This document shows, piece after piece, positions 1-60,900 of a DNA stretch of 64,000 nt. This DNA is from Perkinsus chesapeaki (Eukaryota > Perkinsozoa > Perkinsida > Perkinsidae): NCBI GenBank assembly GCA_013115145.1, contig JAAPAO010000052.1, forward strand, positions 1 to 64,000. The letters are read 5' to 3'. Each line of letters opens with the position of its first letter. Position 1 is the first letter of the stretch. Under the pieces are notes generated by a model, which did not search any database, had not been told where the DNA came from, and saw only the letters and a list, made by a program, of their open reading frames with translations. The position numbers and the translations under genes are program-made.

Positions 1-357
1 ATTAACAGCTTTAGCTCAGATTTTCCGGGATTGCTTGTAATATACTTCTTTGCTTGGGTTTGACCATCCACACGATGAATCTGACGCACGCTGGCCCCCC
101 TACTGCTTGTTGCAAGCTAGACTCCCTGCTTCATTCTATCGATGATATACATGAAATCTCTAATGTTTGGTTACTTGACCCAGTTAGTTCATCTTTCGGA
201 TTAGGGGAGAATGTCAGGTGGAAGACTCTGCTCCACAACCTACTGTCCCCAGGCTACCTAAATCAACCCCACATATCATACAGTCTAAACGTTTTGAGAG
301 GACTTGCTAGCTGAAAGAGTTTGGAGCTCTACGTAAAGGCTCGGTATTACCGCTTAC

Positions 358-377
358 TTCACAATGTGAAGTTCACA
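358..377. repeat. 14-nt inverted triplet
   Basis: TTCACA a TGTGAA g TTCACA. Perfect; direct-repeat spacing 14. Confidence 0.85.
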
Positions 378-575
378 CTAGTTACAGTTCCCCACGGGGG
401 AACGGTACATTCTTACAGTACGAGTGTGTGTACTGCCACATTACTTGCAGTTTAACTTGTCTGTGAAGCTAACGGAAGTAGCTGGTTATACTCACGGCTG
501 ATTACACATAAAAGGTTCGGCTTTTGTGCTACAACTCGGATGGAATCTACTGCTGCTTGAAATAACTTGTAAGGG

Positions 576-595
576 TGAGAAATTCTCATTGAGAA
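576..595. repeat. 14-nt inverted triplet
   Basis: TGAGAA a TTCTCA t TGAGAA. Perfect; direct-repeat spacing 14. Confidence 0.85.
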
Positions 596-815
596 TACTC
601 GTGGGGGAGACGCAATGCTGGTGCTACGCGTGGAGCAGGGGAGCTCCACGGACAGCGCGTTCTCTCGTACAAGCCAGTATGTTTATCATGAACAGGGACT
701 AGGGTGGAACATTTGAAGACTTTTTTCAGGGCCCCACCGGCCGGAGGCCGGAGGGGAGCCCGAACAGTGTGAACAGCGTGAATCGGTGGGAACACTAATA
801 GTTGCCAACTAGCGA

Positions 816-854
816 CTCGAACGGTATGGTGGATCATCCACCATATCGTTCGAG
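816..854. repeat. 39-nt palindrome, 1-nt centre
   Basis: Two 19-nt arms (left arm starts CTCGAACGG, right arm ends CGTTCGAG) flank a single C. The arms match at 18 of 19 positions. Either strand could extrude as a hairpin. Confidence 0.85.
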
Positions 855-868
855 ACTCGAACGTCGAG
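849..868. repeat. 14-nt inverted triplet, one mismatch
   Basis: TTCGAG a CTCGAA c GTCGAG. One base of the third arm differs. It abuts the larger palindrome at 816-854. Confidence 0.75.
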
Positions 869-1473
869 TCATACACGGTGGATGGTTCTGTTTCCCCAAT
901 ATGGAGGTTTATCAATCGTAAAAAAACGTTATTGGCAATTACCTCGCTACGCAGACATACGCTTCTTTTAACAGCTTACTCGGAAAAGTGACCTAGTTCG
1001 TTCAACATTGCCGGAGTAGAATCATTTCGCAACGGGCTTTATTGGAGTCTGACACAGCTGATATCATTGAGACACTGGTTTTGTCGCAGAAAATTTCCCC
1101 TGTCGTGACCCATCAGCGGCTTTCCATGGGAAGGTTTCCAAGAGGCCGAAGGTATTCAGGTCATGGACGCCACTGGGCTGGTGAGAGACAGGAAGTTCGT
1201 TCCGAGCGATGATCTGTCTCACTGGGTATTACTCGATTATAGTCCCACCAACTCTGAACTCGGCCACATTCGATTACCAGTGGGTTCCGTAACGAGTTGA
1301 GGGTCCGTTCCGTATTCAATCCACAACGCGCGATACCGGTATGGTTCTCTTGCTTGCTCGAGATCACGTCTACCTCCAGACCACTGATAGAGTCACTATG
1401 CCAGAGTGTTGGTGTCATACCGATGAGCTTCTAGGCATTGTGGATATTCCGGCTCTCGATAACCTCGAAGATG

Positions 1474-1493
1474 TCCTAGGCTAGGACTCCTAG
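1474..1493. repeat. 14-nt inverted triplet
   Basis: TCCTAG g CTAGGA c TCCTAG. Perfect; direct-repeat spacing 14. Confidence 0.85.
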
Positions 1494-1553
1494 CCATCGA
1501 AGATGCAGATGCCCCTAGAGGCGATAGGTTGTTTGATCGCGATCGAGGAGACT

Positions 1554-1573
1554 TCCTGTTGCAGGAATCCTGC
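1554..1573. repeat. 14-nt inverted triplet, one mismatch
   Basis: TCCTGT t GCAGGA a TCCTGC. The first arm has one substitution. It lies at the left edge of repeat copy 1. Confidence 0.75.
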
Positions 1574-1576
1574 ATG

Positions 1577-1860
1577 GAGGCTCTGATGTGGCGCTACGTC
1601 TGTACAAATCAGAGGACGGCGCTACTCGCGGAGTTGATCTCGCCGGCGCAGTAATCAGCGCCTCGCTGATACCGAGAACGTCTATCGCTGTGGTTCACGG
1701 CAATATCCCACACGAGTATTTCGGTTTCACTATGGTAGATATGGACCATAAGCAGGTACTGTATCCAGGGCAACCGTCATGGCTGTCTTTCTTGGTCAAG
1801 CTCTCTGTGAATGACTCTCGCTAGTTGGTCTTCCTAAGGCGTAATGGTGGGTCTGACCTG
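1577..1860 (+). repeat. Divergent repeat, copy 1
   Basis: This segment aligns base by base with 2182-2660. Shared blocks include GGAGGCTCTGATGTGGC at the start and CAAGCTCTCTGTGA near the end. A 78-codon frame (1588-1824) contains the peptide VLYPGQPSW, recurring as VLYSGQPSW in copy 2, so the unit may derive from a coding sequence. No start, domain or family can be recognised. It is useful as the reference against which the 14-nt insertions in copy 2 are seen. Confidence 0.75.
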
Positions 1861-1874
1861 CAGTGTGTCAGACC

Positions 1875-1894
1875 CACTAGCCTAGCGACACTAG
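1875..1894. repeat. 14-nt inverted triplet, one mismatch
   Basis: CACTAG c CTAGCG a CACTAG. The middle arm has one substitution. It overlaps an 11-bp stem with 9-nt loop at 1847-1877. Confidence 0.7.
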
Positions 1895-2096
1895 TGGGAG
1901 CATCTTTCACCGATCCATTCAACTTCTCAAACCTTGCAAGCTGAAGGGACACTTCCATTTGGTGAGGCTGACTCCCGCAAGCGTGTGAATGTACTGGCTG
2001 CAGAGATTGCCCGTGAACAACCTACTTATTTCTACACGCATAGTCGCGATCAGTCACCGCACTTTAAAGCACAGCCCTCCTTCAATTGTATTGCAC

Positions 2097-2116
2097 AACA
2101 TTTAATGTTGAACAAT
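2097..2116. repeat. 14-nt inverted triplet, one mismatch
   Basis: AACATT t AATGTT g AACAAT. The third arm has one substitution. Confidence 0.7.
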
Positions 2117-2276
2117 ATTGTAAGACAAACGACAACGATGTCATCAATAAATGATGATCAATTAGAATTCCAGACGAACCGGAGGCTCTGATGTGGCATT
2201 ACGTCTTCACAATTCGGGGGATGACACTACTCGCGAAGTTCCGGAGCAGTACTCGGCGCCCCGCTGACACCGATTT

Positions 2277-2296
2277 CGTCTAATAGACGTCGTCTA
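2277..2296. repeat. 14-nt inverted triplet inside repeat copy 2
   Basis: CGTCTA a TAGACG t CGTCTA. Perfect. Repeat copy 1 has a single CGTCTA at this place (1679-1684); removing 14 nt from copy 2 restores exact length agreement. Confidence 0.9.
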
Positions 2297-2519
2297 TCGC
2301 TGTGGTCCACGGCAGTATCCCGCACAACTATTATTTTGATGTCCAGGATGACCGATCGTGTAATGCGGTGTCCCAGTGGGGACAGTGCAGCTATTACAAA
2401 GCTCATTGATCTGTAGCGTAATTGTATTCGTCCCTACAGTTAGATTTATCCATTAATCTCCCTCTTGAGTTAACGAGATTTGCTACACCAACGGGCGACA
2501 ACATATTTCAGTTTCACTA

Positions 2520-2539
2520 TGGTGGTCCACCATTGGTGG
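2520..2539. repeat. 14-nt inverted triplet inside repeat copy 2
   Basis: TGGTGG t CCACCA t TGGTGG. Perfect. Copy 1 reads TATGGTAGATATGG here (near 1731-1744); removing 14 nt from copy 2 gives TATGGTGGATATGG. Confidence 0.9.
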
Positions 2540-2650
2540 ATATGGAACATAAGGAGGTACTGTATTCAGGTCAACCGTCATGGTTGTCTTCCTTGGTCAA
2601 GCTCTCTGTGAGTGACTCTCGGCAGTTGGCCTTCTTAGGGAGTGATGGTG

Positions 2651-2670
2651 GGTCAAATTGACCCGGTCAA
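2651..2670. repeat. 14-nt inverted triplet
   Basis: GGTCAA a TTGACC c GGTCAA. Perfect. It sits at the right end of repeat copy 2, where copy 1 has a different hairpin (1847-1877). Confidence 0.85.
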
Positions 2671-2709
2671 TGTATCATATATATAACGTGTTATTGCCAC
2701 TCAATTTCA

Positions 2710-2729
2710 TGATAGACTATCACTGATGG
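2710..2729. repeat. 14-nt inverted triplet, one mismatch
   Basis: TGATAG a CTATCA c TGATGG. The third arm has one substitution. Confidence 0.75.
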
Positions 2730-2942
2730 TACTACACACGATCGCAGCACCACCTTCAGTTGCCCATCTGATGGGCCCATCATAATAACAGTATCTCGAG
2801 TATCAGTGATGATTAATAATTAATCTGATTAAACTGATCAATAATTTAATCAAATTACATCTCGGTCGAATTTGAGACCTGAAATGAACATGACTTTCAC
2901 ATGAACTTCAAAGTAAAAGTCTCAGTTGCTCTCAATGAATAA

Positions 2943-2962
2943 GGTGCAGTGCACCCGGTGCA
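2943..2962. repeat. 14-nt inverted triplet
   Basis: GGTGCA g TGCACC c GGTGCA. Perfect; direct-repeat spacing 14. Confidence 0.85.
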
Positions 2963-3118
2963 CCAATGAGCTCATCGGATGCAGATACTTCAATCCAGGT
3001 ATCCTTCGGTCAGGACTTGCGGAACTCCCATGAAGACAGTAACACTGTGATTCTGACGAGTCGAGCGCTCTGTGGCAAACCCTGAAACTACAGACACGGT
3101 CAGAGAGGCATGGTGACG

Positions 3119-3667: not shown

Positions 3668-3688
3668 ACTTACGACTCAGTCGTAAGT
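3668..3688. repeat. 21-nt perfect palindrome, 1-nt centre
   Basis: ACTTACGACT, a single C, then AGTCGTAAGT. No third arm is present. Confidence 0.85.
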
Positions 3689-3689
3689 G

Positions 3690-4195
3690 CGAAAGCAACT
3701 TCATCCTCTCTCCGATCGCATTTACCTTTAGTTCCGAGTCGCAGGGTGAAGTACGTGTTCGGTACTGCGCGTGGAGCAGGATAGCTCTACAAGTGTGCTT
3801 GTATATGTAACGCCCGATATCACTCTTGCGTATCGGCTCCTTCTGAATTCCGATAATTCTTGTGTTCTAGTTGTGCGCGTGTTACTTCGAATTCCGAGTT
3901 TTGAGTTCAAACTTTGAACGCGAAGCATTCTGAAGAGCATAACGAGCCCTCTAGCTTGTATGGCCTCCAGACTAGAACAGAATAACTCAATACAATTGAA
4001 CTCATCATTAGGCCGTGGCTAACGCGAGTGATTCATCCTGTCTGCTCTGAGCAACCTGATGACAATGTAAACTACTTTATGTAATCGAATTCTCTTTAGT
4101 TGATTTCGTCTCACTTTGTTGGCTGCATAAACAGACTCCAATAGGGGCGGATCAGACACCTTGCCATCTTCTATATATCTGCAGTACCCTTATAA
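3690..4195. other. Intergenic stretch, nothing recognised
   Basis: No coding family or RNA gene seen. A degenerate copy of the hairpin at 629-650 lies at about 3769-3790. Confidence 0.4.
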
Positions 4196-4217: not shown

Positions 4218-7200
4218 CTACTTCACGCAAGCTGCGACTATCTCATTCCTTGCCACTTCGTTATCCCACAGTAAGCCTATCGCCGTCTGAAGTTCCAGTA
4301 CTCCCCGTTGGATCATCCCTTGTTCGCAGAGAGCGCATCCATACAGCCAGTGGGCAGAACCTGCTATCGACGCAGTTAGTAAAATGCTCTGAGCATTGGG
4401 TACACGGTGAGTCACCGTGTGCCTAACCATCACCGCTAGCTTCGATCTCCAGAGCTCTCGAAGCTGCCGCTTCCGCTAGAGTTGGAATTTTGTTGGATAG
4501 CCAGGCAAATCCCAGTTCGGCCAGCAGTTTAACCTGAGGTGATGGAGCTTGCTACCATCAGTTTGATGGCATCAGAGGGTAACCACCCTACATTCACCGG
4601 TTCATTAATCATATACAGATCAAAACATCGACGGGGCTGTCTCAGACCTTCCTCGAAGGGCCCTCCACGGAGGAGAACCTAATGTAGTAGTAGAGATTGC
4701 ATGAACGAAAAAGATTGTGGTAACTTTACCAGAGACATCAAGCCCCAGCAATCAGCGTGCAACATGGGATGACTGCCGTCCAATTGGCCACTATCACTAG
4801 GGATTCTAGAAGTGTCAGCTAAAGACAATGCCATAGATATAGCCTTCTTCGCCTGAAACGGTGATATTCACTGGTGCAAATATCTTGCCTGAGTCAGCCT
4901 GACCTCCACCCATCTCTCTTGATGAACATAAGTAGTAGATATGTAAAGCCATGCCGTAGCTGTTGGCTGGGATGCCAAAACCTACACGAATTATCGAACG
5001 AAGCTCAGTAACTTCCATACATCCTTTTGACTAACCATCAGAAAGTCTCGAGCTTGGGACCATTTCTTCTTCGCTAGCAGCAATCTAGCGTATTGCAGTA
5101 TTGCCAATAGGCGAAGCTGTCTAGATTCTATCAGATGTGTCCCGTTACTAGGCGTCGAGGGTTATCTACCTGTGGTACTCTCCCTCTGCAAGCCAGGAGG
5201 GGTTGCCTTCAGTAATGCCTCACTGACTTTGCTGTCACCTGCCCCACTACGTGCTAAGCACTCGCCCAACAGGGCCCACGATGAGCAACCTGCAAATATA
5301 ATTGAGGCACCGGGAGAGTTCGTCCTTTTGTGGTGAACTGTTTACGATGAGGTTCCGTAGCAACTATTCGTTCAAGTACTTCAACAGCTCTATCCCACTG
5401 CCTATGCTGTGTAAGACTAACAGCTACCAAATGATGGAACTCACACCACTGCCTACAGATCTGGCTCAGAAATGATGTTGCCCCTGAGAGAACGAGAGTC
5501 CAGTGTCACAGAGCAACCGGGGATCAGCGGAGATCGAGATCAACGGATACATACCTATTTGCTTTCTGATGTCTCTCAATGCCAAGCCAATAAGATCAGC
5601 AAATTGATGAAAACTGTTGTCTACAACAAGCTCCTTGAGCAACGCTAGAGTAGTATGGTCAGACTGTGTCAAATGAAGCTTAGGTGTTGGGACTAAGCTA
5701 TCAATATAAGGGGGCTGCAGAGACTTCTGTGTTACTTGGTGGTAAAAGGTTCATGTATAGCCCAGCCCCAGGGCCACATGCATCTTCATTCCCACTAGTC
5801 CCGATTGATCTAGGGGAATCTTCAGAGAGTGCTTGACTATCATTTTTATTGTCTTCATCTTCATGATGGCCAGCGTCAGCACCATCGAATAGCCTGGATG
5901 TAGCCGCCAGTGGTTATTGGAATAAGCAAGCTAACCTCAGTTTGTCAAATATTTGTTGTTCTGTTTTCATTCCCCGAAAGAATGACTTTTCTCGTGTGGA
6001 TAGCCCAATGTAGCGAGCACAGCCCTCCAGATCACCCTAGGAAGTGACTACTATGAGGAGTTGCATGGAGTTTACCTGCTTATGAAGGTTGATTCCTTTG
6101 ATGAGATTAACAAGCGAATCTGTCATGCCTTCAGCTTCCGTTAACTGAGAAATATATCTTCACCGTAATTTTCACGAGAGCAACCTTTTCAAGGGCTCCA
6201 CCAGCTTCGTTGTACCTATCTCTACTAACCAAGCTACAAGCTAGATAGCACATTGCCTGACAATGGGACTATGCCGATACGGCCGCAATGCGGCCGCCGC
6301 GTTGTCACCTCGCGGTTATAGCCGAGCATGGTGGCTTCCTTCAAGGCATGCTCTGCCATTCTGTTCTGACCTCCTAACCTCCTTAAGAATGCTGAGTATC
6401 TCATCCAAGCCATTTGCCTCATTCCTATTGATGCTTTATGGCCCTCGAGAGTGACTCGATTACCCGCTAGAGACTCTTTGTCTGAAGTGTAGGTAGAGTT
6501 GATGACGATTTGGCGCTTATACTCCCAGGCCGCTGCCTCGTAACTGAGAGGGTTGTCGCGGAAACGCGCCTGGGAGGTAAGCGTACTTGTGGCATATGAA
6601 TTCAGCTTCCCAGGCCAGTCTAATGGACGTGGTGAATGCATCTTCGGAATCGCTTAGAACGAGCGGAATCTGCATAAAGAAGCGAGATGTTATGATGATA
6701 CTATCTGCCAAATCGAACCATCAGACCATAGGCGAGATGGAGTTTGCCGTTGTAATTTACATCATCGGGTGTTCTAGGCGTCCTCAATAGTGCTGATAAG
6801 TGACTAGAGAGTATGGCAAAAGCTTCGCTCTTCAACTCCTCTAGATGTTCCTGAGGGGCTGTGGCCTTTGGAGTTCAGCAGCTGGCTCTCGTACGTCACT
6901 CATGTTGTGGTAAAACTGACTTCCTTTATCCACCATCTCGGATATAACTCTGCATAAAGGAAGAAGCTCCATAGCAGTTTCTATTTAGCATTTGGTACCT
7001 TATGATAGCTGGCCTTAGCATATTCGCTTTCATATCCATCAAGATGTCCTTTATATCCTCCCCTAAGACAGGTACGTTAGAAACTGTCAAGCCATATCCT
7101 CTAACCCCCTTGTTGAAGCACATCGACTATCTGCAACACCGCAACTCTGAAAGCCTCTACAGCATCTTCCTTTTCTCTCTGCACAGGGTGCTTTTTCACG

Positions 7201-21536: not shown

Positions 21537-22324
21537 TCAGTGCGGATGTATAACAACTCAGCTAACCCTATCGGAGCTCGACAACAGCTTTATTTTGACT
21601 GATGACAATCGTTTCAATGGCCTCTTTATCCCTCGCCGATGACGTGTATATTCCGGCCGAGGTCATTGTTACTGCAACAGCATCATCAATTGATTATTGC
21701 CCACGAGGTCCAAAGTTATTCTTTTTAAAGGCGAATTCGCCTAACGATTGTGCATGTTTCGTAAGACGATATAGACGAATGTCGCGTTAGTAAGTCGATA
21801 CTGTTGACGGGAGCAAAAGTAAGCTGAAAAGTGGAATAAGACGCTACCACCACACTGGAGCTACCCTATCCTTCCATACTAGCTCATCTACTGTAAGCCT
21901 AGGAATCCTAAGTACCGGAACAAAACACCTGAATCATGCAACGAACATGCAAGGCGAGAATAAGCGCAAGAGTACTTGGTAGCTCGCAGATTACTGTGCT
22001 TCAGTTTCCCTTAAACTCACTAGGTTCGTTTTTGCAGTTCGCTATCTGCCTTCGTTCCTGTCCGGACTCCAGAGATCTTGCTGGATATGGGCTGTTAGGC
22101 TTCCGTGCTATCTTACGGTAGTGAATTGGAACCAGAATGTACTGTAGTTTATAAGCATTTGAATCTAAAGTAACGCATATGCTTCTAGTTAACGGTGTTA
22201 CAAGTTACATAAGGTTGAACTTATTGACACCACTAGAGAGCTCAAGGGCAATATCGTGATGAAGCGGATGCGACACCTGAATGAGAATCATACACGATAA
22301 AAAGGGTTGAAGACTTCACTAGAA

Positions 22325-22344
22325 TCACTTGAAGTGATTCACTT
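22325..22344. repeat. 14-nt inverted triplet
   Basis: TCACTT g AAGTGA t TCACTT. Perfect; flanking bases extend the palindromes to 19 and 17 nt. Confidence 0.9.
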
Positions 22345-22845
22345 CAGCAATGCTAGCCTTGCATGCGCTGCTGAGTATCCATCAGCATCACACGTAGTGC
22401 GTACATGCTTGCAAGGAAAGCTAGTGGATTAGTAAGGGAAGGAAGATATCTGAGGTCATCACAAACTTTTCTGACAAACATGATCTAGAAGTATGAAGTG
22501 TTCCACATCTCACCGTATTAGGGGCATATCCTAGGATAGGACTTTTAACATACGATATCCTATACCAGGATAAAGCTTTCTCTAAGTTTACGGCCCGGTG
22601 GGTTACCGGCCCGGCGGTCACCGGCGGTGACGCTAGACTGTGACTATCGGGGTGGAGCGGGGCCAAGGTCGCGATCTTGACCGAGAAACGTCTCAGCTTG
22701 TCGTACATCGCTTAGGATTTAGACAAAACACGCAAACACGGGAAGTGGTAATAATTGTCTGATATTGGAGCTCAAAAATGCATCCCCATACCTCTGAGAA
22801 TTGGTATCTCAACTCGAACACCACCCGTGACTCAGGGCATCCGTG

Positions 22846-22865
22846 ACCGCCGGGCGGTCACCGCC
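22846..22865. repeat. 14-nt inverted triplet upstream of secreted-protein copy 1
   Basis: ACCGCC g GGCGGT c ACCGCC. Perfect. Between the shared words CGTGAC and GAGGGG copy 1 has 43 nt and the homologous stretch upstream of copy 2 has 29 nt, a difference of exactly 14. Confidence 0.9.
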
Positions 22866-22890
22866 CTCAGGTGACTCATTCTAGGTGATC

Positions 22891-22946: not shown

Positions 22947-24596
22947 ATGGGTCCTGAGATGGTTTTCTTTTTCCTAGTGTTGCAGACGTCAGTGGTCGAG
23001 ACTTCACGTATCCGCTTCATTGTTAATGTAACAACGTATCTTGATCTCGGTATTAAAGACCACAGGAAGGATGCAACGCCTTGTTGGTTGTCATCGGCCA
23101 GGAATACAGAAGGCCTCACTTTACCTGGAATGGACTATAAGACGATATCAATGATTCAGGAAGTGACTGTGGAAGACGGTGCTCGTTATACTGTCACTGC
23201 AATGCCAAACTATCCATATCAATACTTTATGACTACAGAGACTTCAAATCATACCCGCCTGGAGCAGCTCTTCGGAAATGAGGCAGTTTTGGTCTCCACC
23301 GGCGGCCCTGAAGCCGACGTGGTTAATATGAAAGCCGATTGGTCCAAGGAGGCCCTGCTCGGCGATGGCTGGGTGTATGACACCAATGTAACATTTGACA
23401 ACCGCAACCTCAAGCGTTGGACCAAAACTGTTGAGGAGTTCGACAACGAGTCAAGCTTTAATCATTCTGCTTTGTGTCATTCTGGTGTTGGTCCAAATCG
23501 TTGGTATCTCCTAACCGATGAGAATGACCATCCAGTTAGGTCTGATGCAATCAACACTTGTAAAGAGCAGCTCCACCAAACGGCGGAGTTTAGCAAGTTT
23601 GAGGTCGGTGTGTCACTTGCTAGCTCTGCCTTCACCACTAAAGAAGATATCTTCTATCGCTATGATATCTCCCCGGCAAGAAAATTACGAGACTCAGCAG
23701 AGAGGTTAGCACCGCCTGTCGGTCGACTGTATTTAAACAAAGCAGTGCCACACCCAACCTCTGAGACGCATCTTGGTTATGTTAAAGGCTGGGAAGGGTC
23801 TGATTGGTTATCCAATAAGCAACTGCGTGGGGAGAAGAAAGACAGAATCAACTATTTCACAGTTGAAGAGGGCACGGCATCATACAGTTACTTCTATGCC
23901 GACCACCAGAGGCAGCTGGTTGAACTGGTCAAATTTATGTTTCCAACTACTTGCCGAGATAAGCGGACGGGTTATTCCTTTTGCTTGTACATAGAGGTGA
24001 CTGATGTTATGAGAGGGATGCGTGACTTATCAGTCAACGCTGGCTTCAGCATTGTCGATGTCACAAAACCGAATATAGAGGTTACGCTGAGGCTCTTCTT
24101 CCAGGGAACTTTTGATTCGGAGAACCACTTGTTCGACGTCATTCTTGGTCTACAGGCTCAAGGATGTGCTATTGTGTGGCAGCTCGGTGAAGGTATCGCA
24201 CTCTATGCTGCTGTTTGTATAGATGGTCGAGCCAGAGTGGAACATCCCGAATCACCGAACCGTGTGATCGACGTCCGCATAGCTATGTCATTGACTTTTG
24301 GAGTTTCCATGCCAGTAATCGGGGACTTGGCCGACATCACGTTGCAAGGTGCTCTCACCGCCACCATAGACAAGAACATATCTGCAACTGCTTCCATCAT
24401 GTTAATCAAGTCTTTGCTGGTGGCGGGTGTCGGACTGGGAATAAGTGTGACTGGAATGACTAGTAACCTTGACATGAAGACCTGGGACTGGAGTATCGGA
24501 TTCGACCTACTGTGTTGGGTGAATGTTCTTTTCTGGAAGCATACTTGGAGTAAGACCTATAAAATATTTGACACTGGTCCGATCCACATGCGATGA
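22947..24596 (+). CDS. Secreted 549-aa protein, tandem copy 1 (family unknown)
   Basis: An uninterrupted 549-codon frame. The N-terminus (MGPEMVFFFLVLQTSVVE) looks like a signal peptide. The mature part has about eight Cys and several N-glycosylation sequons (NVT, NHT, NES, NHS, NIS), so it is probably secreted or surface-exposed. The C-terminal third alternates hydrophobic and small residues (LGLQAQGCAIVWQL, MSLTFGVSMPVIGDLADITL, LLVAGVGLGISVTG), suggesting a beta-rich fold; no second membrane anchor is clear. I do not recognise a family and think it is lineage-specific. It is about 97% identical to the copy at 26483-28132, with around 16 mostly conservative differences. Both copies are intact and intronless, unlike most neighbours. 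A host-interaction role is possible but unsupported by a motif. Confidence 0.8.
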   Translation: MGPEMVFFFLVLQTSVVETSRIRFIVNVTTYLDLGIKDHRKDATPCWLSSARNTEGLTLPGMDYKTISMIQEVTVEDGARYTVTAMPNYPYQYFMTTETSNHTRLEQLFGNEAVLVSTGGPEADVVNMKADWSKEALLGDGWVYDTNVTFDNRNLKRWTKTVEEFDNESSFNHSALCHSGVGPNRWYLLTDENDHPVRSDAINTCKEQLHQTAEFSKFEVGVSLASSAFTTKEDIFYRYDISPARKLRDSAERLAPPVGRLYLNKAVPHPTSETHLGYVKGWEGSDWLSNKQLRGEKKDRINYFTVEEGTASYSYFYADHQRQLVELVKFMFPTTCRDKRTGYSFCLYIEVTDVMRGMRDLSVNAGFSIVDVTKPNIEVTLRLFFQGTFDSENHLFDVILGLQAQGCAIVWQLGEGIALYAAVCIDGRARVEHPESPNRVIDVRIAMSLTFGVSMPVIGDLADITLQGALTATIDKNISATASIMLIKSLLVAGVGLGISVTGMTSNLDMKTWDWSIGFDLLCWVNVLFWKHTWSKTYKIFDTGPIHMR

Positions 24597-24738: not shown

Positions 24739-26426
24739 GCATTGGCAATGAATCAAGATTTTGAACAGAGTACTACTATAATAGTTGCAGTATGACTATT
24801 CATCTATCGTAGACTCTGTAGGTCATGTCTTTACACCCGTTTACGGAGCTTTAAACTCTTCCCATTTAGTCCTGGATATTCTCAATTTATTCGAATCTCT
24901 TAAGTTCATAGTCAATGAGAGTTTGGGCCTGGGCCGGTATGCGGATCGTGATCCACGCGTGATCCTGAGAAAAAGATCATGCAAAAAGATTGACGCAATG
25001 ATTTTCTGGCGTGAACCTCATCTTTTAGCTCAGATCAATTAATTTGGGATCATGCATCGGGATCACAGATCATTCGGTTTGCAAAAGTGCTGTGAGGCTT
25101 TGGGAAGAATACACTTAACATCGGCACTGAGACGAGTATGTAGTTCATAGTCGTGGGGCCCCTACCCAAAGACCCTCCGCGGTTGTACCTGTAGTTCTGC
25201 TTCCGTGTAATGACTCGTGTTATTGGTCGTGATACTCAGGTCCGGATGGCATGATTGGCAAGCGGTAGAGGCTTGCTACAATTTCGTACCTCAACTTCGT
25301 TGTGCTTCGGCCCAGCTCCTATGGTCAGACCTGCGTATTCAACACGGATAGCAACTGTAATAATGACCAGAACAGGTCATTTTTGACTGGGCGAGAAGAG
25401 TATTGGCTGGACTGCTCTGCCCAAGAGAAAGCTGTTTCATGTGATATAACACTACTGTGGGTTCTAGATGTTGATAGCTCACCAGTGATAAGGCACCAAT
25501 AGTTAAGTCCCGCACATACGGTATATGACTCTGGTATATGATATACCCGAGTCATATGCCTCATTTGGTATACCTCATCTGTCCATACCAGAAGGGCATT
25601 TTCGACATAGATCTACCGTTCTCGGTGAGAAGTTCGAGCGTCTATGGTCTTCCGACTATATTTCAGTAGGGGCTTGTAACAAGCCGCTTGTTTCGGCATG
25701 CAAAGTGCACAACGTCATGAGGCTCTATGATTCACGGCATGGATGAGGTCTTGGGGGGCCTCGACAGCCACAAGATAATGAATCCAGAATCACAACGAAG
25801 AGCTTAAGCTTCGCTTAATCGGGAGATCGATTAATCGAATGCTCAATCAGCAGAGCTGAGGGTTATTCCGCTGTCCAGTCCTCATCCGCGTTCTCGAAGA
25901 CCGGAGCCGATTCCGTAAATGGGATTCTAGGATCAATTTCGGGCTTGAAAGTTTAGCACGGGCGCGGGGCTCGAATCGAACGGTCTACATTGTTCGTTAC
26001 CGCCGGAATGTGACTGTTGAGATGGAGCAACCTGGCTAGGCCAAGGTCGCAAGCTTGACCGGAAAAGATCCCGGGTAGTCGTAAGCTGCTTATATTTTGG
26101 GGTGGAGAAAGTAGGTGTAACGCATCGACTTGGCTATTAGGGTGCTTGAGCCAAGCACTCCCCCTCTAAGATCTCTAGCGAAGACAGATTCTCACCGTCC
26201 TCAGTTTACAGCTAAATTCGGGCTGCAGCCCGCCACGTTGTTGGATCTGTGACCTCCGCAGGGTTTGTAGCCGAAACACGCGAATAGTGTAAGCGGGGGA
26301 AGAGCCGTATGGTGTTGTAAGTCGGGTAACGCATACCTAGATCCCTCAGAATTGTTATCTGTACTCAATCGCCTACGTGCCAAGGAGCATGCGTGACTGT
26401 CTCCGGATATGTCCTTCGAGGCGAGC
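24739..26426. other. Intergenic between the secreted-protein copies
   Basis: No gene recognised. A frame at about 25302-25502 (FLTGREEYWLDCSAQEKAVS) has coding-like composition but no family and no exon partners. It contains the 41-nt palindrome at 25520-25560. Confidence 0.4.
25520..25560. repeat. 41-nt palindrome, 1-nt centre
   Basis: GGTATATGACTC, T, GGTATAT, a single G, ATATACC, C, GAGTCATATGCC. Pairing holds at all but two positions. Confidence 0.85.
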
Positions 26427-26482
26427 GAGGGGATAATTGGATTACTACAGCTGCCCAACTCAGTTTAAACCCTTCTTTTTAG
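26427..26482 (+). promoter_or_regulatory. Conserved 5' block, copy 2
   Basis: Counterpart of 22891-22946: same length and only a few substitutions, directly before the start codon. The conserved part ends abruptly upstream. Confidence 0.55.
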
Positions 26483-28132
26483 ATGGGTTCTGAAATGATT
26501 TTCTTTTTCCTAGTGTTGCAGACGTCAGTGGTCGAGAGTTCACGTATTCGCTTCATTGTTAATGTAACAACGTATCTTGATCTCGGTATTAAAGACCACA
26601 GGAAGGATGCAACGCCTTGTTGGTTGTCATCGGCCAGGAATACAGAAGGCCTCACTTTACCTGGAATGGACTATAAGACGATATCAATGATTCAGGAAGT
26701 GACTGTGGAAGACGGTGCTCGTTATACTGTCACTGCAATGCCAAACTATCCATATCAATACTTTATGACTACAGAGACTTCAAATCATACCCGCCTGGAG
26801 CAGCTCTTCGGAAACGAGGCAATTTTAGTCTCCACCGGCGGCCCTGAAGCCGACGTGGTTAATATGAAAGCCGATTGGTCCAAGGAGGCCCTGCTCGGTG
26901 ATGGCTGGGTGTATGAGACCAATGTAACATTTGACAACCGCAACCTCAAGCGTTGGACCAAAACTGTTGAGGAGTTCGACAACGAGTCAGGCTTTAATCA
27001 TTCTGCTTTATGTCATTCTGGTGTTGGTCCAAATCGTTGGTATCTCCTAACCGATGAGAATGACCATCCAGTTAGGTCTGATGCAATCAACACTTGTAAA
27101 GAGCAGCTCCACCAAACGGCGGAGTTTAGCAAGTTTGAGGTCGGCGTGTCACTTGCTAGCTCTGCCTTCACCACTAAAGAAGATATCTTCTATCGCTATG
27201 ATATCTCCCCGGCAAGAAAATTACGAGACTCAGCAGAGAGGTTAGCACCGCCTGTCGGTCGACTGTATTTAAACAAAGCAGTGCCACACCCAACCTCTGA
27301 GACGCATCTTGGTTATGTTAAAGGCTGGGAAGGGTCTGATTGGTTATCCAATAGGCAACTGCGTGGGGAGAAGAAAGACAGGATCAACTATTTCACAGTT
27401 GAAGAGGGCACGGCATCCTACAGTTACTTCTATGCCGACCACCAGAGGCAACTGGTTGAACTGGTCAAATTTATGTTTCCAACTACTTGCCGAGATAAGC
27501 CGACGGGTTATTCCTTTTGCTTGTACATAGAGGTGACTGATGTTATACGAGGAATGCGTGACTTATCAGTGAACGCTGGCTTCAGCATTGTCGATGTCGC
27601 AAAACCGAATATAGAGGTTACGCTGAGGCTCTTCTTCCAGGGAGCTTTCGACTCGGAGAACCACTTGTTCGACCTCGTTCTTGGTCTACAGGCTCAAGGA
27701 TGTGCTATTGTGTGGCAGCTCGGTGAAGGTATCGCACTCTATGCTGCTGTTTGTATAGATGGTCGGGCCAGAGTGGAACATCCCGAATCACCGAACCGTG
27801 TGATCGACGTCCGCATAGCTATGTCATTGACTGTTGGAGTTTCCATGCCAGTAATCGGGGACTTGGCCGACATCACGTTGCAAGGTGCTCTCACCGCCAC
27901 CATAGACAAGAACATATCTGCAACTGCTTCCGTCATGTTAATCAAGTCTTTGCTGGTGGCGGGTGTCGGACTGGGAATAAGTGTGACTGGAATGACTAGT
28001 AACCTTGACATGAAGACCTGGGACTGGAGTATGGGATTCGACCTACTGTGTTGGGTGAATGTTCTTTTCTGGAAGCATACTTGGAGTAAGACCTATAAAA
28101 TATTCGACACTGGTCCGATCCACATGCGATGA
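26483..28132 (+). CDS. Secreted 549-aa protein, tandem copy 2 (family unknown)
   Basis: Second copy of the 22947-24596 gene, 3536 bp downstream in the same orientation, also 549 codons with no intron or frameshift. Differences include P3S and V6I in the signal peptide, D to E after GDGWVY, R to P after TTCRDK, and V/I swaps in the C-terminal part. Coding identity (about 97%) is far higher than in the intergenic DNA, where only blocks next to the gene can be aligned. That suggests purifying selection or gene conversion over the gene body. The function is unknown. Being paired and intact, it is probably expressed as a small gene family. Confidence 0.8.
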   Translation: MGSEMIFFFLVLQTSVVESSRIRFIVNVTTYLDLGIKDHRKDATPCWLSSARNTEGLTLPGMDYKTISMIQEVTVEDGARYTVTAMPNYPYQYFMTTETSNHTRLEQLFGNEAILVSTGGPEADVVNMKADWSKEALLGDGWVYETNVTFDNRNLKRWTKTVEEFDNESGFNHSALCHSGVGPNRWYLLTDENDHPVRSDAINTCKEQLHQTAEFSKFEVGVSLASSAFTTKEDIFYRYDISPARKLRDSAERLAPPVGRLYLNKAVPHPTSETHLGYVKGWEGSDWLSNRQLRGEKKDRINYFTVEEGTASYSYFYADHQRQLVELVKFMFPTTCRDKPTGYSFCLYIEVTDVIRGMRDLSVNAGFSIVDVAKPNIEVTLRLFFQGAFDSENHLFDLVLGLQAQGCAIVWQLGEGIALYAAVCIDGRARVEHPESPNRVIDVRIAMSLTVGVSMPVIGDLADITLQGALTATIDKNISATASVMLIKSLLVAGVGLGISVTGMTSNLDMKTWDWSMGFDLLCWVNVLFWKHTWSKTYKIFDTGPIHMR

Positions 28133-37698: not shown

Positions 37699-38918
37699 AT
37701 GCTCTTCCAAGCACACTATGGCCTAGCATCCTCTGATGGTATGGGTCAACCGCCTGCCAAGCCTGAAGGGAGCTATCTTTCAAACCACTGTGAGATAAAG
37801 CGGCTACTGGCAGTGACTCACTGCCAGTGAGTTGATACTGGCTTAGGCTCCTGTGCTGTACTTGCTGACTTTATTCGTGAGAGAGCACTAGATGATATTG
37901 AATTTAATATACATAGAAGAAAGGCTGATGAGAGGGTTGAATTAGGAAGGTTACATAGGTTACACGCACAACAGAAGGATATGGTAACAGATGGGGATCC
38001 CGCATATCACTTATAAGTAGCATGAGTCGAGTAGCATGATACTAATATACATAATGAGGACAGGAGTGCAATGTGTGTAGATGGCTCAGCTGGAGAGGCA
38101 GCTCGTGGTACTACGTGAAAGAAGGGAAGCTAAGAAGAATAAAAAGAAGGATACTAAAGGGCATGCCGTGGTGAGAGCTGTAGTTAAGTGGATGCTGCTG
38201 CAGATATGTACGGTAGATAGAGGGTGAAGATAATGGTGATGATGGCCCTACCAAACAGGAGATGGACTGTGAGACATCATTACAGGAATCCAAGGAGCTA
38301 ATTGCACTTATAGCAAAGGAGATTGAATGTCGAGATGAGGTAGGTTATGAATGTGTTTCGCCTGACAGGGGTACCTTAATAAGGTATTTATGTATGCTCC
38401 CCAGGCTGATAGTCGCGGGATGCATTCGACCTTATAGGACTGTGCTTGTTGAGGACTCTAGTGCGTTGGTACAATAGAGAGTTTAGTGAGGAAGGTGTTG
38501 GTGATTATGCAATTCAATGGAGGGGGGATTCCTTATCATCCCTTCACATCCTCTGTGTCTCTATCATTTCTGGTCTAGGTAATAGAGCAGCTAACACAGT
38601 ATGAGGAGAAACTGAAAACAGTTGATACAATAGAGTTAGCTCTTAATGCGCCTCCTGCTGTGGCGACCAAAGGGGGTGCTCAACAACAACAGCAGCCTAC
38701 TACCATTGATCTCTATGCCGATCCCCTTCGAGTAGCTTCCTCTGTGGTAGGCATCATCATGCCACCACATCCGCTATCTTATCAATCAGGTACCAGTCCG
38801 CAGTGAAGTGTCAGTTATTGCCAAGCCTCGTGCCGTCGACGGAGGAGGGGACCAAGGTGTACCCCAAGCCGAGCCGTTCTCATTGGTAGTGCCTCCATGG
38901 TGCAGTGCTGCTACTTGA
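37699..38918 (+). CDS. Coiled-coil hypothetical protein
   Basis: Starts MLFQAHYGLASSDGMGQP. A 57-nt intron (37790-37846) carries an inverted triplet and is followed by CSCAVLADFIRERALDDIEF, then HRRKADERVELGRLHRLHAQ, MAQLERQLVVLRERREAKKN, MDCETSLQESKELIALIAKE, and EQLTQYEEKLKTVDTIELAL. It ends with VPVRSEVSVIAKPR and a stop at 38918. Heptad-like charged helices point to a coiled coil. No family recognised. The junction between about 38350 and 38580 is uncertain. Confidence 0.5.
37811..37830. repeat. 14-nt inverted triplet inside an intron
   Basis: CAGTGA c TCACTG c CAGTGA. Perfect; it occupies a third of a 57-nt intron. The first palindrome extends to 23 nt (37806-37828). Confidence 0.9.
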
Positions 38919-51204: not shown

Positions 51205-51756
51205 TTTTAAAGAGTAGGCCGTCAAGATAACAGTCACATTGAGGTAACTCAAGTTGGGAAAGGAGAGGGAACCAGAAACGCAAGATGTAACATAGGCAAT
51301 AGTCGGTTATGATAGTTATGATAGCATAGGACAGAGGACTCCTCTGAGAGGAGGATAGCCAAACAAGAGGACTTATAGGTTACACACAGAGAGCCTCAAG
51401 CAACAATTATTAGACACAATCGAATGAGCTACAATAGATTATGGGATCTTGCTAAAGACCCATTATACTGAATCCACAAAGGTCACCCGAACACAAAGGT
51501 ATGAGCTAATAGTAGATCAGACAAAAATTCAACAGTTAGTCTGCACCACTTCCTATATACGTTATATAATGAAGTAGTAGTAGTATTATAGATAGAATAA
51601 AGGTAGTATACGAGTAGTAGGCATTATGTACACAAACTTAAATAGATTATAAGGTCAGCATCACCAACAGCAGCAGCAGCCTCAGACTAAGAAGAGGCCT
51701 AGCCTCCACTTCGTATACGTTATATAGTAATTCTTCTTCCTCTTTATTAGTAATAT

Positions 51757-54700
51757 TTACTCACAAGAGCTCATGTGTCGTCTAGCATACTGTCGTTGGT
51801 CGTTGAGGCCTCTATAAAGTCCTCGCCAACCACTATCTCCAACACCAGCATTATCCTCTGTTACATCATCTCTACGGTTACCATTCATACTACTGCTATT
51901 ATTATGATGGCTACCTCGGGACTTTGTACTTCCTCGTCGATCCCCACCACGACGAGACTTCCTTTTTATCTTTAAAGCGATAACTTCACGCGATAACCTT
52001 GTAGCCATAATAGCATGAAATTGCATAGCCGACTTTGGATGTTCATGTTCTAACCTCAATAAGCTATCTCTTGGTAATAATAATATGGTGGAATAAGAAT
52101 CAGCTACCATCGTATTCGAATGTGGGTATACACCATATACTGCACTATCACATAAGAAGTCACCAGACCCAACAACTCTTATACGATGGTTTTGACGTCT
52201 TGTTCTTGGTATATCCATAGCTGGACCAACCCTTGCTGCAGTAAGAGGGCTAAAGTCACCACCCATATGAGTATGTACCCTCACTGGCCCTGTGTATAAG
52301 CTTAATTCTCCAGAGACTATCAAATACGCTCCTTTTGCTATCTGTCCTTCTTCATATACAACATCACCAAGTGATACCTCCATACGTTGCATTTTGGATA
52401 GTAATGGTTCCACTAGGGAGTCCCCGAATATCTTTGCAACCAATCGGCGACATAAACTGTTTATCATAGTAGCTCTATCTTCTTCTGACTCATATACTGG
52501 TTGTTGCTCATACATATCATAAGATAGATTAGCAAGATCCTCATAGCTCTCTAGGCTCGGTAGACCGGAATAGTGACTGAGATTAACACTAGATAGGCCA
52601 AAGTTATCTGAGGCAAGAACTCCTTCGTGTTCATCCTCAGCACCAATCAGTGATGATGTGGATGTATGGGAGGAGCTTCTACCAGGGAGCATGCCAGACT
52701 CCAACATCTCAAACTGTGATAGTTTAGTAACAATACATTTATCTTCTACATATTCTAAAGCTGTATCAATATCATCAAACACCTTAGCTTGCTTAACAAA
52801 CTTTTTTACTTGATTCACTAAATTATCTCGGGTGAGATTTGCAATGACAAATCTAGCACCATCGGCCATGGGTAGAAGGCTAGGTATCTTATTAAGGGAG
52901 ACTAATGCACTAGAGTCGATAGAGGTTAGGGATTCAAAGTCCAAGACTAGATAACGAGTATTCTTAAAATCATTCGTATAACTAGTAAGGGCTTGAGAGA
53001 ATCTAGCACCAGAACCAAAGAATAGACTATTAATGATTGTCTTTGCGACAACTATAGTCTTATCTTGAAAGGAGTCATCAAGTATATTCATCTCTTCTAT
53101 TGTCCTAAAAGACATGTATCATAATAAGGAGAAGGAGGAAGGGTACGTGTTCATACCTAGCTTTGGTGCTCCTCACGTCAGTTTCAAATGTTACCACTGG
53201 AGCAGAGGATTCACGAAGTGTGAAATAACTAAAGATGGTATAATAAATGATAATATGTATAATGCCTCTTACATGCAGCATAAAGCTAGGCCTGCACAGA
53301 TAGCCCATACCACTCCTTTGAATAAATACGTAACCTAAGTCAGTTATGGATGCTAAGCCAATAGATATGATGTCGGCTGTTGTAAGGGGCCGGGAAAAGC
53401 ACGAGCACACCTTACTGCAATCAGTGCCACGACGAACTTCTCTGAACCATTAACTAGATGTCTGGGATCCCAAACCCCATCGAGTAGGTAACCAAAGGCT
53501 ATATGATACAGCATACCTGAATAACAGGAATGTTATTATGATATTCAACACCACCTTTAGAGCCCCCCATACCAGCAACCCATGGTTTAGGGACGAACTG
53601 GAGCAAGCTTTGACCAACAAGTAACCATACAAAACAGCTAACAGCATAAAAGAAGCCAGACCATCTTGTAGTGCCACCCCCAGCATCTTGATTAATACGG
53701 GTATTGGAATAGGACACATAAGAAGCGGAACCTGAATGGTTACTAGCAGGAAAGGTAAGGATGAATTAGCAGTTGTTGTTACCTCCCATAAGCCCACATA
53801 CAGTATTTGAGACAGCAGCACGCTCTATCTCAGACTTCATGTTTAATTCTACATGGGATGCAGCTTCCAATGGGACCTGAAAGGGAGGGGTTATAGTATT
53901 GGAGCATAGAGTGAAGACGATGATGTACTTACAACTGCACCTGCACTCATATCAACAAAGTATACAACAAACATAGAAAAGATAGCCACTGCATACTCAG
54001 AGAATAGGTAGCCGTAATCAAAGGTGAGAGGGTTACCATAGTCTTCAACAAGAGCAGTTAATGGTTGGTAAGGGAGAGAAGCAAACAACCATTTATTATC
54101 ACGTGCTTCACTAAGTGATAAACCTAGTATACCGCAGATAAGACCATAGAGTAGAAAGAGTTCAATTATGAATATACAAGGTAGTATAAGAGGGTTAGGG
54201 AACCATCGACTACCGAATCTATTCATAAGACCGCATAGACAACCAGCTATAGATTGAAGTAAAAGTGTTTCATCCGTCATAGTATGACTGAAATCAGCAA
54301 ATGTTTTAATGGTGAATCCAACAGCAGTATCATTAGATGATTTACACATAGCTAAACCAACAGCCGTGAAGAAGCCATAGATGACTGGTTGAGGGAAACC
54401 AGACTTAATAGTATTAAGATAGTCTCTACCAATAAGTACTATGACAAATAGGAATAATCCAAATGCTAGAGTAGTTGCACCAAATATTGTTAGTACTTGC
54501 GATACAGCTAATTTAGCATTGCTACCAGCAGCTTCAACATAGGCAGCTGTGATGGTGGATAGGAATGGTAAACCAACACTTGAAGGGGCTGCTATTAAAC
54601 CCTTTATCTTATGATTACAATGAAATAACTGACTAACCATAGCTGATATTAATATAGAGTTCTGGCATACACCAATCCATGGTGCAATAAGAGGATCAGA

Positions 54701-57984: not shown

Positions 57985-60900
57985 TTATACTAATAATGCA
58001 TCATGGACAAATGTACGGTATGATACTATATCGCTAAGTAAACCATCCACCTCAGCCTCAACACCAGCAGCAGCATCATCATCATCATCATCGGTTGTAT
58101 GGTAGCCCTGCTGCTCTATGGTAGAATGAGGCACTGCCGGCGAGGGCATCATCATCATCCAGCTAAGGCATTATAATATAACTGTTATTAAAGTATATCT
58201 TACCTTAAATTAAGATGCAAATAGCGTTGATGGAATCTATTAATATAATCAGATAAGGTAAGGTATTGGGATATACGCTCCTGATAATAAAATATATAGG
58301 AAAGAGTAAACAACAAAGTAGTAGCAATAATAATAATAGTACAGCATCGAAGGTTAGTATTAATGTAGCTGGATTCTTAAGTAGCAATGATACTGTATCT
58401 TGTAATGCTCTAAAATCACCTAATAATGGAGGTTTATGATAATAACGAGTGCCTAATAGAGTAACACCTTCACCCCCATCATGGTCCATATCATCAACCT
58501 TCCTTCTAACATATGATAGTATATCCAATACAGTTCCTCTAGGATCTCCTCTATTAAGACTCAGAGGTACCTACATCATCATTATTATTATTATGAGTAT
58601 AATAAGTGTTATTGTTGTTGTATCATCCCCATACCTGGCATATATGGCAGAATACTCTAGCATCACCATGATACTGGCTTGGGGTTCTAGACAAGTCATC
58701 TAAAGTGGGGCTCTTGTTATGGGGGTCATTACGGGTAATGGTACTATTATACCGTGGATGATGATGCTCTAACTGAATAAGATAATGAGTAAAATATATT
58801 ACACATGATGATGATGATGACATACGTGGAAAGGTGTATCATACATACGAACGGTGCTGGGTGGCCTCTCAGTAGCGCAAGATGTCGGCGGTGATGGTGC
58901 TCTGTTAGTAGTCGTAGGGATAGGCAATCTCCTTATCGAGTCAAGTATAGACTGAGGATCCCTAAAGTATAAGGCTGCTGCTGTTGCTGTTGCTTCTTAT
59001 GTAGCACTAAGAGTAACTCTTACCTTAATAATGGATGACATGCTGTAGTCGCTAATGGTTCTCTATAGCATGGTCGACGTCTGACCATACGAGAGAGGTA
59101 GTCCTAATAAGAAACAGAGGATAGGAGGGAGAGTGTACTAGGCAGCAGCAGCAGGCTACTAAGAATAGTGGATCAAGATGACGACCAAATAGCTGCTTGC
59201 AAGTAGTGGTGGTCTGGTGAGCATCGGCTGTTGCTGTTGCTGGATCAGGTAGCCTGTCCTCCCATTGTTTGGGGCGTACACCAGTAATAGCAAATAATAT
59301 AACAGCACCAAGTCCCCATACATCAACCTATTAGTAGGTAATAATTATATTATGATAATAAGGTATATGGTTATTATTACTAAAGACCAGTCTATATCAC
59401 TCAATAGGGATTCAATACTATGTACATCATAATCATCCTCATCACTTAACATCTGGAGTATATGCGCCACCTGAAAGGGTATAATGGTAAATGGCAGTAG
59501 GAGCAGAGTATAGGGTATTACTACCTCTGGTGGATACCACCCTTCTTTAGCATGCCCCTCTGACAGTATCTCCTTAGCTTTCTTCTTGACTATCATCCTC
59601 ATTGTGGTATCATCATATTGCCTTCCACCTCCTTGGCCTGCTGCTGTTGTAGTATGACCCTCAGTCAGCTCGCTGCTGCTTGTCGAGCATGGTCTTATTT
59701 TATTAATTATATCCAACAGCTTAACTTTACCAATCTGACACATATTAACAGGCATACCAAAGCAGCAGCAGCAGCAGCAGCAGCTCGTAGACGTACATGA
59801 TCGCCAATTCTAAAAATGACTCTAGATCCCGATGGTCGTGATCCTGATGGTAGATCGACTAATACATTATTAGCTGATAATCGGCCATGATATATATTAA
59901 AGAACTGATAACAATAATACAAGTAAGGATGTTGTTATTGACGTATAACATGAGGCGTACATGCATACGCTGTAGGCCTGCGGTCAAGTCTCTAGCTAAT
60001 ATCTGTACCATATCACCAGATAGTGCAGTACTAGATGGATCTGATAATATTAATAATAATAATATGATGAAGGGTAATGTAAGTAGTAGTACCAGTAGTA
60101 TCTATAGATGCACCAAAGCCTGCTAACATCTCATTCAATGACATATCACATTCTGTTATAGTAACCACAATCTTACCAGTCGACTAAGAGAGCAGGCGTA
60201 ATGCTATATTTGTAGTGCTAGTATTGGTGGATAATGATTAATACCTCCTCATATATATGAGATATATTAACAATATTAGTATGTGGTGATCGGGCCAATA
60301 ATGCTAATTCACGGACTATCTGTCGTATACCCCCTACTCTTGACAAACATCTATTATGGTATATCTGAAGAAGAAGAAACCTTTAAGGATGATGATGATG
60401 ACGATGCTAGTTACTGGCTCCTCGAAGGGTCCACTTGTTGAAGGTGATGATGTTGATGATGCTTTATTATTAGATAATAGTATCTATCACTATTACTTAT
60501 ATCATTATTGTTATATATTACTACTACTACCTGATCTGGGAATACTCTTTGTAGGTTATGTAGGAATGCAGTAACATCTCTCTGTTGCTCCTCCCCTTCA
60601 TCCTTTATCGGTATTATCTTAGCCAGGCATTGCTTACCCTGAGTATAACATAGTCGTACGCATAGTCAGTACATTATCATACGTCATCATCATCAATCGA
60701 CTTGTTGCCATTTGTAGACAGCCTTCCTCCTCCTCTTTTTGTTCTTGTATCCTTCTCTTTAGCTCTATGCACACCCTTCGCTCCATGGGCTATATTAGAG
60801 TATACCATCACTCTACCATCGCCCTAATACCCCATCATATTCTTTACCCAGTAGTAGTATTACCATAATATCCCATACTCCTTCTCCTTGTTGTTCCTCT

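Follow-up and report, generated by a model that had tools for sequence, protein, structure and literature searches.

Why should a stretch of DNA contain, again and again, a short word followed by its own reverse complement and then by the word once more, with words that differ from case to case and direct copies that are always spaced by 14 nucleotides (nt)? The question is raised by positions 1 to 64,000 of contig JAAPAO010000052.1 of Perkinsus chesapeaki (assembly GCA_013115145.1, forward strand), hereafter called the window. As shown below, the repeated unit is 22 nt long, is built on a target of 8 base pairs (bp) and amounts to an insertion of 14 bp copied from that target. Our reading, to which we give a probability of roughly 0.77, is that each unit is the excision footprint of a hAT-type cut-and-paste DNA transposon.

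The original prediction listed ten perfect triplets consisting of a 6-nt word, one base, the reverse complement, one base and the word again (6-1-6-1-6), and all ten are present and exact. A full scan of the window brings the count to 13, adding 25672, 51333 and 61481, the last of which is almost pure A/T. With 6-nt arms at other spacings (0-4 x 0-4) the window gave 0 or 1 perfect cases each. The repeat spacing of 14 is real, but the description as a 20-nt triplet with free spacers is too small. We looked at 34 perfect 6-nt triplets from the window and from another 20 stretches of this genome. The base 3' of the last word is complemented by the first spacer in 31 of them, the base 5' of the first word by the second spacer in 29, and both rules are followed in 26. 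The six-base word is superseded by an 8-bp target, and the purine/pyrimidine bias of the spacers is largely accounted for by their complementing the flanking bases. With the target written as T = bWa (8 bp) and primes standing for the complement read backwards, the unit becomes bW + a'W'b' + Wa, or T(1-7) + rc(T) + T(2-8) in target letters (rc, reverse complement). This makes 22 nt, of which 14 bp are net insertion, and takes the form of two overlapping odd palindromes. The units in the window, to which no strand was assigned, are as follows.

357..378, 22-nt footprint, target CTTCACA(T/C), 1 mismatch
575..596, 22-nt footprint, target (A/G)TGAGAAT, 1 mismatch
848..869, 22-nt footprint, target GTTCGAGT, 1 mismatch; adjoins the palindrome at 825-845 (10-nt arm, 1-nt loop)
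1473..1494, 22-nt footprint, target GTCCTAGC, perfect
1553..1574, 22-nt footprint, target TTCCTGCA, 1 mismatch
2096..2117, 22-nt footprint, target CAACATTA, 1 mismatch
2142..2163, probable 22-nt footprint, target CATCATTT, 2 mismatches
2276..2297, 22-nt footprint, target (A/T)CGTCTAT, 1 mismatch; the paralogue at 1576-1720 is without it (net 14 bp)
2519..2540, 22-nt footprint, target ATGGTGGA, perfect; the paralogue at 1717-1853 is without the 14 bp
2650..2671, 22-nt footprint, target GGGTCAAT, perfect
2709..2730, probable 22-nt footprint, target GTGATAGT, 2 mismatches
2942..2963, 22-nt footprint, target (G/A)GGTGCAC, 1 mismatch
3898..3919, possible footprint, target GTTTGAAC, 2 mismatches
4555..4576, possible footprint, target CCATCAAA, 2 mismatches
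6281..6302, 22-nt footprint, target GGCCGCAT, 1 mismatch
22324..22345, 22-nt footprint, target ATCACTTC, perfect
22845..22866, 22-nt footprint, target GACCGCCC, perfect; about 80 bp upstream of the open reading frame (ORF) at 22947
25671..25692, 22-nt footprint, target GGCTTGTT, perfect
37810..37831, 22-nt footprint, target GCAGTGAG, perfect
51332..51353, 22-nt footprint, target CAGAGGAG, perfect
58380..58401, possible footprint, target AGTATCAT, 2 mismatches

Left out are a two-mismatch match at 37803, which is a shifted reading of the 37810 unit, and 61480 (1 mismatch), whose target consists of A and T only. The first 3 kb of the window hold 12 of 22 matches with at most two mismatches (one of the 22 being the shifted reading), and this part looks like neutral, partly repeated DNA. 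Seven cases with one mismatch had also been proposed. Those at 849, 2097 and 6282 hold on the 8-bp model with one mismatch each; 1554 is not within one mismatch in 6-nt words, yet is so as the 8-bp unit 1553. The others fare less well. On the 8-bp model 2710 has two mismatches and 42683 three, a level at which chance matches are frequent; 1875 does not come within three, and neither does a supposedly decayed case at 1121-1140.

Comparison with other DNA shows how far the units exceed chance. The own-DNA set comprised 36 stretches of the 35.4-Mb assembly, some of them picked for repeats, with a non-redundant length of 304,607 bp (306,300 bp before removal of the 1,693-bp overlap of stretches L039 and L042, which leaves the unit counts the same). 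It contains 39, 38, 40 and 77 units at 0, 1, 2 and 3 mismatches, against 0, 0, 1 and 13 in 250 kb of E. coli and 0, 0-1, 0-2 and 14-25 in five first-order Markov shuffles; from three mismatches up, chance supplies much of the unit count. Nine geometries with one or both arms displaced yielded 0-1 perfect matches versus 36 for the true geometry. Perfect counts for targets of 6 to 11 bp in the 36 stretches are 4, 1, 39, 0, 0 and 0. In the window, target 8 at offset 1 gives 8 perfect units, 17 with at most one mismatch and 23 with at most two, while targets 7 and 9-13 give no perfect unit. For the 20 other stretches (197,411 bp) the cumulative counts at 0, at most 1 and at most 2 mismatches are 21, 39 and 62 with target 8, 1, 8 and 62 with target 7, and 0, 0 and 3 with target 9; the two-mismatch count of target 7 is mostly chance, because two matched bases fewer are involved.

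The excess is genome-wide, being found in every own-DNA set scanned. Extrapolation from the 197 kb gives about 3,800 perfect units and about 11,000 with at most two mismatches in the assembly, figures that are rough, most stretches being non-random and taken from contigs listed by a trinucleotide-repeat search. The original prediction was staked on an excess at spacing 14 and on a lower density in shuffled or unrelated DNA, and both were found when the window and about 240 kb of further own DNA were set against shuffles and E. coli. A wider search of geometries (targets 5-13 at offsets 0-3; targets 9-44 at offsets 0-2) revealed no comparable class, and three perfect matches with target 10 and offset 3 in the window are second readings of units 848, 22324 and 37810. 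The four perfect target-6 triplets in the 36 stretches, against 0.3 expected, are possibly a minor class or low-complexity matches. A lone triplet of the same form lies at L036:241-277, on a 13-bp target and with one mismatch. L019:1-5000 (C19:50001-55000) is a second hot stretch, in a 10-kb locus with 11 units of at most one mismatch.

That the unit is an insertion follows from related copies without it. We compared the joined flanks of 121 sites (at most two mismatches; four in the duplicate locus L051) with own DNA. This returned 22 rows, of which 8 were dropped as the same DNA twice (L032/L051); the 14 kept correspond to 11 distinct comparisons, given the overlap of L039 and L042 on contig C8. 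Among the 121 sites, eight footprints have an empty-site paralogue that is net 14 bp shorter: 2276, 2519 and 22845 in the window, 2716 and 8481 in L025, 3658 in L029, and 1340 and 1364 in L043. In four of the eight comparisons the gap was split or shifted by the aligner, and the rest of the 121 sites had no usable paralogue among the own DNA compared. For 22845..22866 it is the tandem copy at 26328-26552 that is without the footprint (net 14 bp). These eight comparisons confirm the proposal that 14 bp copied from the target itself are inserted. L043 has two footprints 24 bp apart, and a third occurs in L029 within the same short stretch; none of the three is shared with another copy. The L029 footprint is missing from the copy on C8, and because these copies are 98% identical over 229 bp it must be recent. 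The surrounding repeat at L029:1726-4005 is transposon-like: its terminal inverted repeats are 202 bp long and 96% identical, and its coding frames are broken. The copies on C8, C411 and C320 serve as empty-site controls, and three separate footprints fall within one short stretch of the repeat, in two copies.

The placement and age of the units can be read in the same way. Stop-free frames of at least 150 codons make up 22.3% of the DNA scanned and hold 1 of 77 units (at most one mismatch), whereas 17 are expected (p=8e-8); this avoidance fits selection, because a 14-bp insertion shifts the frame. The mismatch spectrum is flat (39, 38 and 40 at 0, 1 and 2), as would be expected of scars that formed at a steady rate and decay slowly.

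The 8-bp targets also share a preference. Counted over the two positions, T at position 2 or A at position 7 (the pattern nTnnnnAn) is seen in 100 of 234 cases (0.427) versus 0.277 expected (p=5e-7), and in 34 of 78 when only perfect units are taken (p=0.002). T is rare at position 1 (0.13), and in the first 29 perfect units T2 is significant by itself (15/29). The hAT transposon Hermes is described as preferring 8-bp nTnnnnAn targets (PMC10368747, PMC2803484), the pattern seen here.

From these observations we infer an origin by transposon excision, by way of hairpins and annealing repair and probably by elements of hAT identity. Insertion of a transposon would duplicate the 8-bp target (bWa). 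On excision, the transposase would nick one nucleotide outside each end of the element and seal both flanks as hairpins, so that the left hairpin strand would read ...bW-a'W'b'... and the right one a'W'-bWa... If the host then opened the hairpins at the outer boundary of the duplication or past it, the inverted duplication (a'W'b' with bWa, 8 bp) would let the two 3' tails anneal. Trimming of flaps and filling of gaps would leave bW-a'W'b'-Wa, 14 bp longer than the empty site, and this product would be the same wherever beyond 8 nt the hairpins were opened. We simulated hairpins of 1-nt offset, opened 8-20 nt from the tip and joined at the longest complementarity: 296 of 300 gave the exact unit. 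Annealing repair would thus naturally turn variable nicks into a single product, although the simulation is a test of logic and not of rate against other outcomes.

Studies of hAT transposons point the same way. The enzymes are reported to leave hairpins on the flanking DNA (PMC4763223), and an Arabidopsis study describes a cut at the flanking nucleotide followed by hairpin opening and microhomology joining (PMC1978519). Footprints of Ac/Ds in Candida are given as palindromes centred on the complement of the transposon-adjacent base (PMC5873905), which matches the identity of both spacers here and so supports the hAT reading. Several features that one would look for in a hAT footprint are found: an 8-bp duplication, nTnnnnAn, a 1-nt hairpin offset, a shorter empty site and hAT domains in the genome. 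Excision with hairpin ends had been one of two options offered beforehand, and it is the one we favour, with a duplication of 8 bp instead of the 6 bp then assumed. What is unusual is that a single product stands out genome-wide. We see roughly even odds that this lineage repairs hairpin-capped breaks almost exclusively by annealing across the inverted 8-bp duplication, which would leave one countable scar and with it a fossil record of jumps from elements now rare in, or missing from, the assembled DNA; this takes together the thousands of extrapolated scars and the flat age spectrum. The Ku domain gave a single weak match (G000 C21:18552-18839, E 1.9e-5) that contains stops, so loss of Ku-dependent joining is no more than a possible reason for the single product.

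Several results weigh against excision by a hAT element. About 280 kb of DNA yielded no convincing candidate for a resident element that has inverted ends and is flanked by 8-bp duplications, and the surroundings of four hAT matches likewise contain no convincing element with such a duplication. hAT genes are few, partial and of single or low copy (four Dimer_Tnp_hAT and two DUF4371 matches), whereas MULE domains are more numerous, with nine matches of which several lie in long open frames; MULEs may also form hairpins on their flanks. The target preference is modest, and A7 alone is not significant in the first 29 perfect units (11/29, p=0.22). Short hAT footprints are not clearly present: hairpins opened 1 nt from the tip would account for 3 cases versus 4.6 expected. 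Tandem 6-mers, the product of direct joining, occur at about twice expectation and lack the nTnnnnAn preference (47/166). Finally, 24 long palindromes with a 1-nt loop lie outside the triplets, again without that preference.

Some of these points can be specified further. Because a scar stays behind when its element leaves, an active cut-and-paste element should have many scars to its name. A weak candidate element at L032:6480-8307 has an exact 8-bp direct repeat and an inverted match of 8/12 around the best hAT gene; it overlaps this gene, cuts into its end and is at about chance level by a hand estimate. (As L009 lies inside L032, the perfect unit L032:8448 was counted twice in the scans for resident elements and short products.) The repeat at L029:1726-4005 was rejected as an element with an 8-bp duplication, which a palindromic 8-mer had mimicked. 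Other short combinations of hairpin products show small excesses, on par with control lengths 7 and 9, precise excisions and deletions being invisible to a footprint scan; a scan for the product expected if both hairpins had been opened at 8 nt and then joined with no annealing found none. Bare tandem 6-mers number 1143 unfiltered versus 69 expected, 221 versus 74 without simple repeats, and 133 versus 74 if each run is counted once. Since the T2/A7 preference is absent, we ascribe them to ordinary slippage and not to excision.

Perfect palindromes with arms of at least 9 nt number 38 at a loop of 1 nt (some within triplets) versus 0-4 for each loop of 0 and 2-7, while E. coli has 3 at loop 1 and its leading loops are 4-6, with 7-10. 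The excess at this loop size alone fits the 1-nt hairpin offset and speaks for the excision reading. Outside the triplets 22-24 remain, depending on filter and loci; their arms reach 25 nt, and no other loop of 0-12 exceeds 4. They have the 1-nt hairpin geometry in common with the footprints. Paralogues offered no empty site for these palindromes; for the one at 3668 in the window, homology stops at the palindrome. Their source may be the same hairpins, resolved on one side only, or a different process. The following have arms of 9-25 nt and a 1-nt loop.

L013:1447-1497, palindrome
L027:5615-5665, palindrome
L036:1132-1178, palindrome
Window 825-845, palindrome
Window 3668-3688, palindrome
Window 4402-4420, palindrome

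The competing explanation that survives best, though we consider it improbable, is a MULE or another transposon with 8-bp duplications that uses the same route of hairpins and annealing. Its strength lies in the nine MULE matches set against few partial hAT genes. MULEs make duplications of 8-11 bp. For the MULE Muta1, however, the duplications are reported to be of 8 bp in 21 and of 9 bp in 39 of 60 cases, target preference to be slight or absent, and excision in yeast to be about 90% precise when duplications flank the element (PMC5225508). Here, by contrast, the nTnnnnAn bias is significant, and at target 9 there is no unit with fewer than two mismatches. The lack of a 9-bp class thus favours hAT over MULE, without proving it. 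As for other sources, Merlin (8-9 bp duplications) was set aside, as a six-frame search gave no DDE_Tnp_IS1595 match at E<=0.001, which is not proof of absence; KDZ and P-type transposase domains gave no match either, as was also the case in control genomes. Introner elements were discounted as well, weighed only from part of the Amoebophrya literature.

Fold-back template switching during replication, with a fixed geometry and no transposon, was the other option put forward originally, and we think it quite unlikely. The excess of long palindromes with exactly a 1-nt loop would suit it, as would the lack of a convincing resident element. Nonetheless, it predicts neither a fixed length of 8 bp, with almost none at 7 or 9, nor a symmetric nTnnnnAn, and it would need two coordinated switches each time. 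Still harder to credit is programmed or domesticated excision, whether by a hAT-derived nuclease like yeast Kat1 or as developmental elimination. Kat1 is reported to make hairpin-capped breaks (PMC4763223), and footprints far outnumber resident elements in our sample; the flat mismatch spectrum (39, 38, 40), however, fits inherited scars that accumulate and decay better than one current elimination set, and no shared target motif is seen beyond the weak nTnnnnAn. Chance, composition or assembly artefact is already refuted by the absence of perfect units from E. coli and the shuffles, by the displaced geometries and by the empty-site paralogues.

Two other features of the window were observed in passing. 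Positions 22947-24596 and 26483-28132 form a tandem pair of ORFs of 549 amino acids, with about 95% identical DNA. Among the best 8,000 candidates by shared words the homologues are three proteins, all from Perkinsus chesapeaki (best identity 57%), for which PF20525 is listed. On the minus strand, 51757-54769 contains two ORFs that by eye resemble parts of a sulphate-permease-type transporter, with STAS-like and cyclic-nucleotide-binding-like regions.

Scars of excision tend to be short and variable and are easily overlooked, so past transposition is for the most part estimated from the elements that are still present. If excision by hAT-type elements is indeed the source, the uniform 22-nt scar would offer another way: a pattern search suffices to find it, its internal mismatches give its relative age, and transposition could be measured in rate and history even without the elements. 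It would also provide a window on the repair of hairpin ends in an early-branching alveolate.

In a literature search by title and abstract opening, with subscription papers mostly outside it, no description of a uniform 14-bp scar was found among the matches listed. Ascot-1 of Ascobolus reportedly shows hAT-type excision with palindromic additions that have been likened to V(D)J joining; its footprints are said to be highly diverse, whereas here one form stands out. Muta1 shares duplications of 8 bp, or of 9, but differs by this mixture, by little or no target preference and by mostly precise excision, as reported in PMC5225508. Kat1, a domesticated hAT transposase of Kluyveromyces lactis, is comparable in leaving hairpin-capped breaks on flanking host DNA (PMC4763223); it acts in mating-type switching, whereas the scars here are dispersed over many contigs. 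Hermes has the same 8-bp duplication and nTnnnnAn (PMC10368747), though its sites listed in PMC2803484 seem to show a stronger preference than ours, and the scars here are linked to no resident element or transposase. Ac/Ds in yeasts and plants comes close in its palindromes centred on the complement of the bordering base, and in hairpin opening and microhomology joining (PMC5873905, PMC1978519). In these accounts, Ac/Ds left 28 footprint types in 128 excisions in Candida, with palindromic additions of at most 3 nt, and arms of up to 20 nt in budding yeast. In Perkinsus chesapeaki, by contrast, short products are not clearly enriched and one full-length double-palindrome product stands out.

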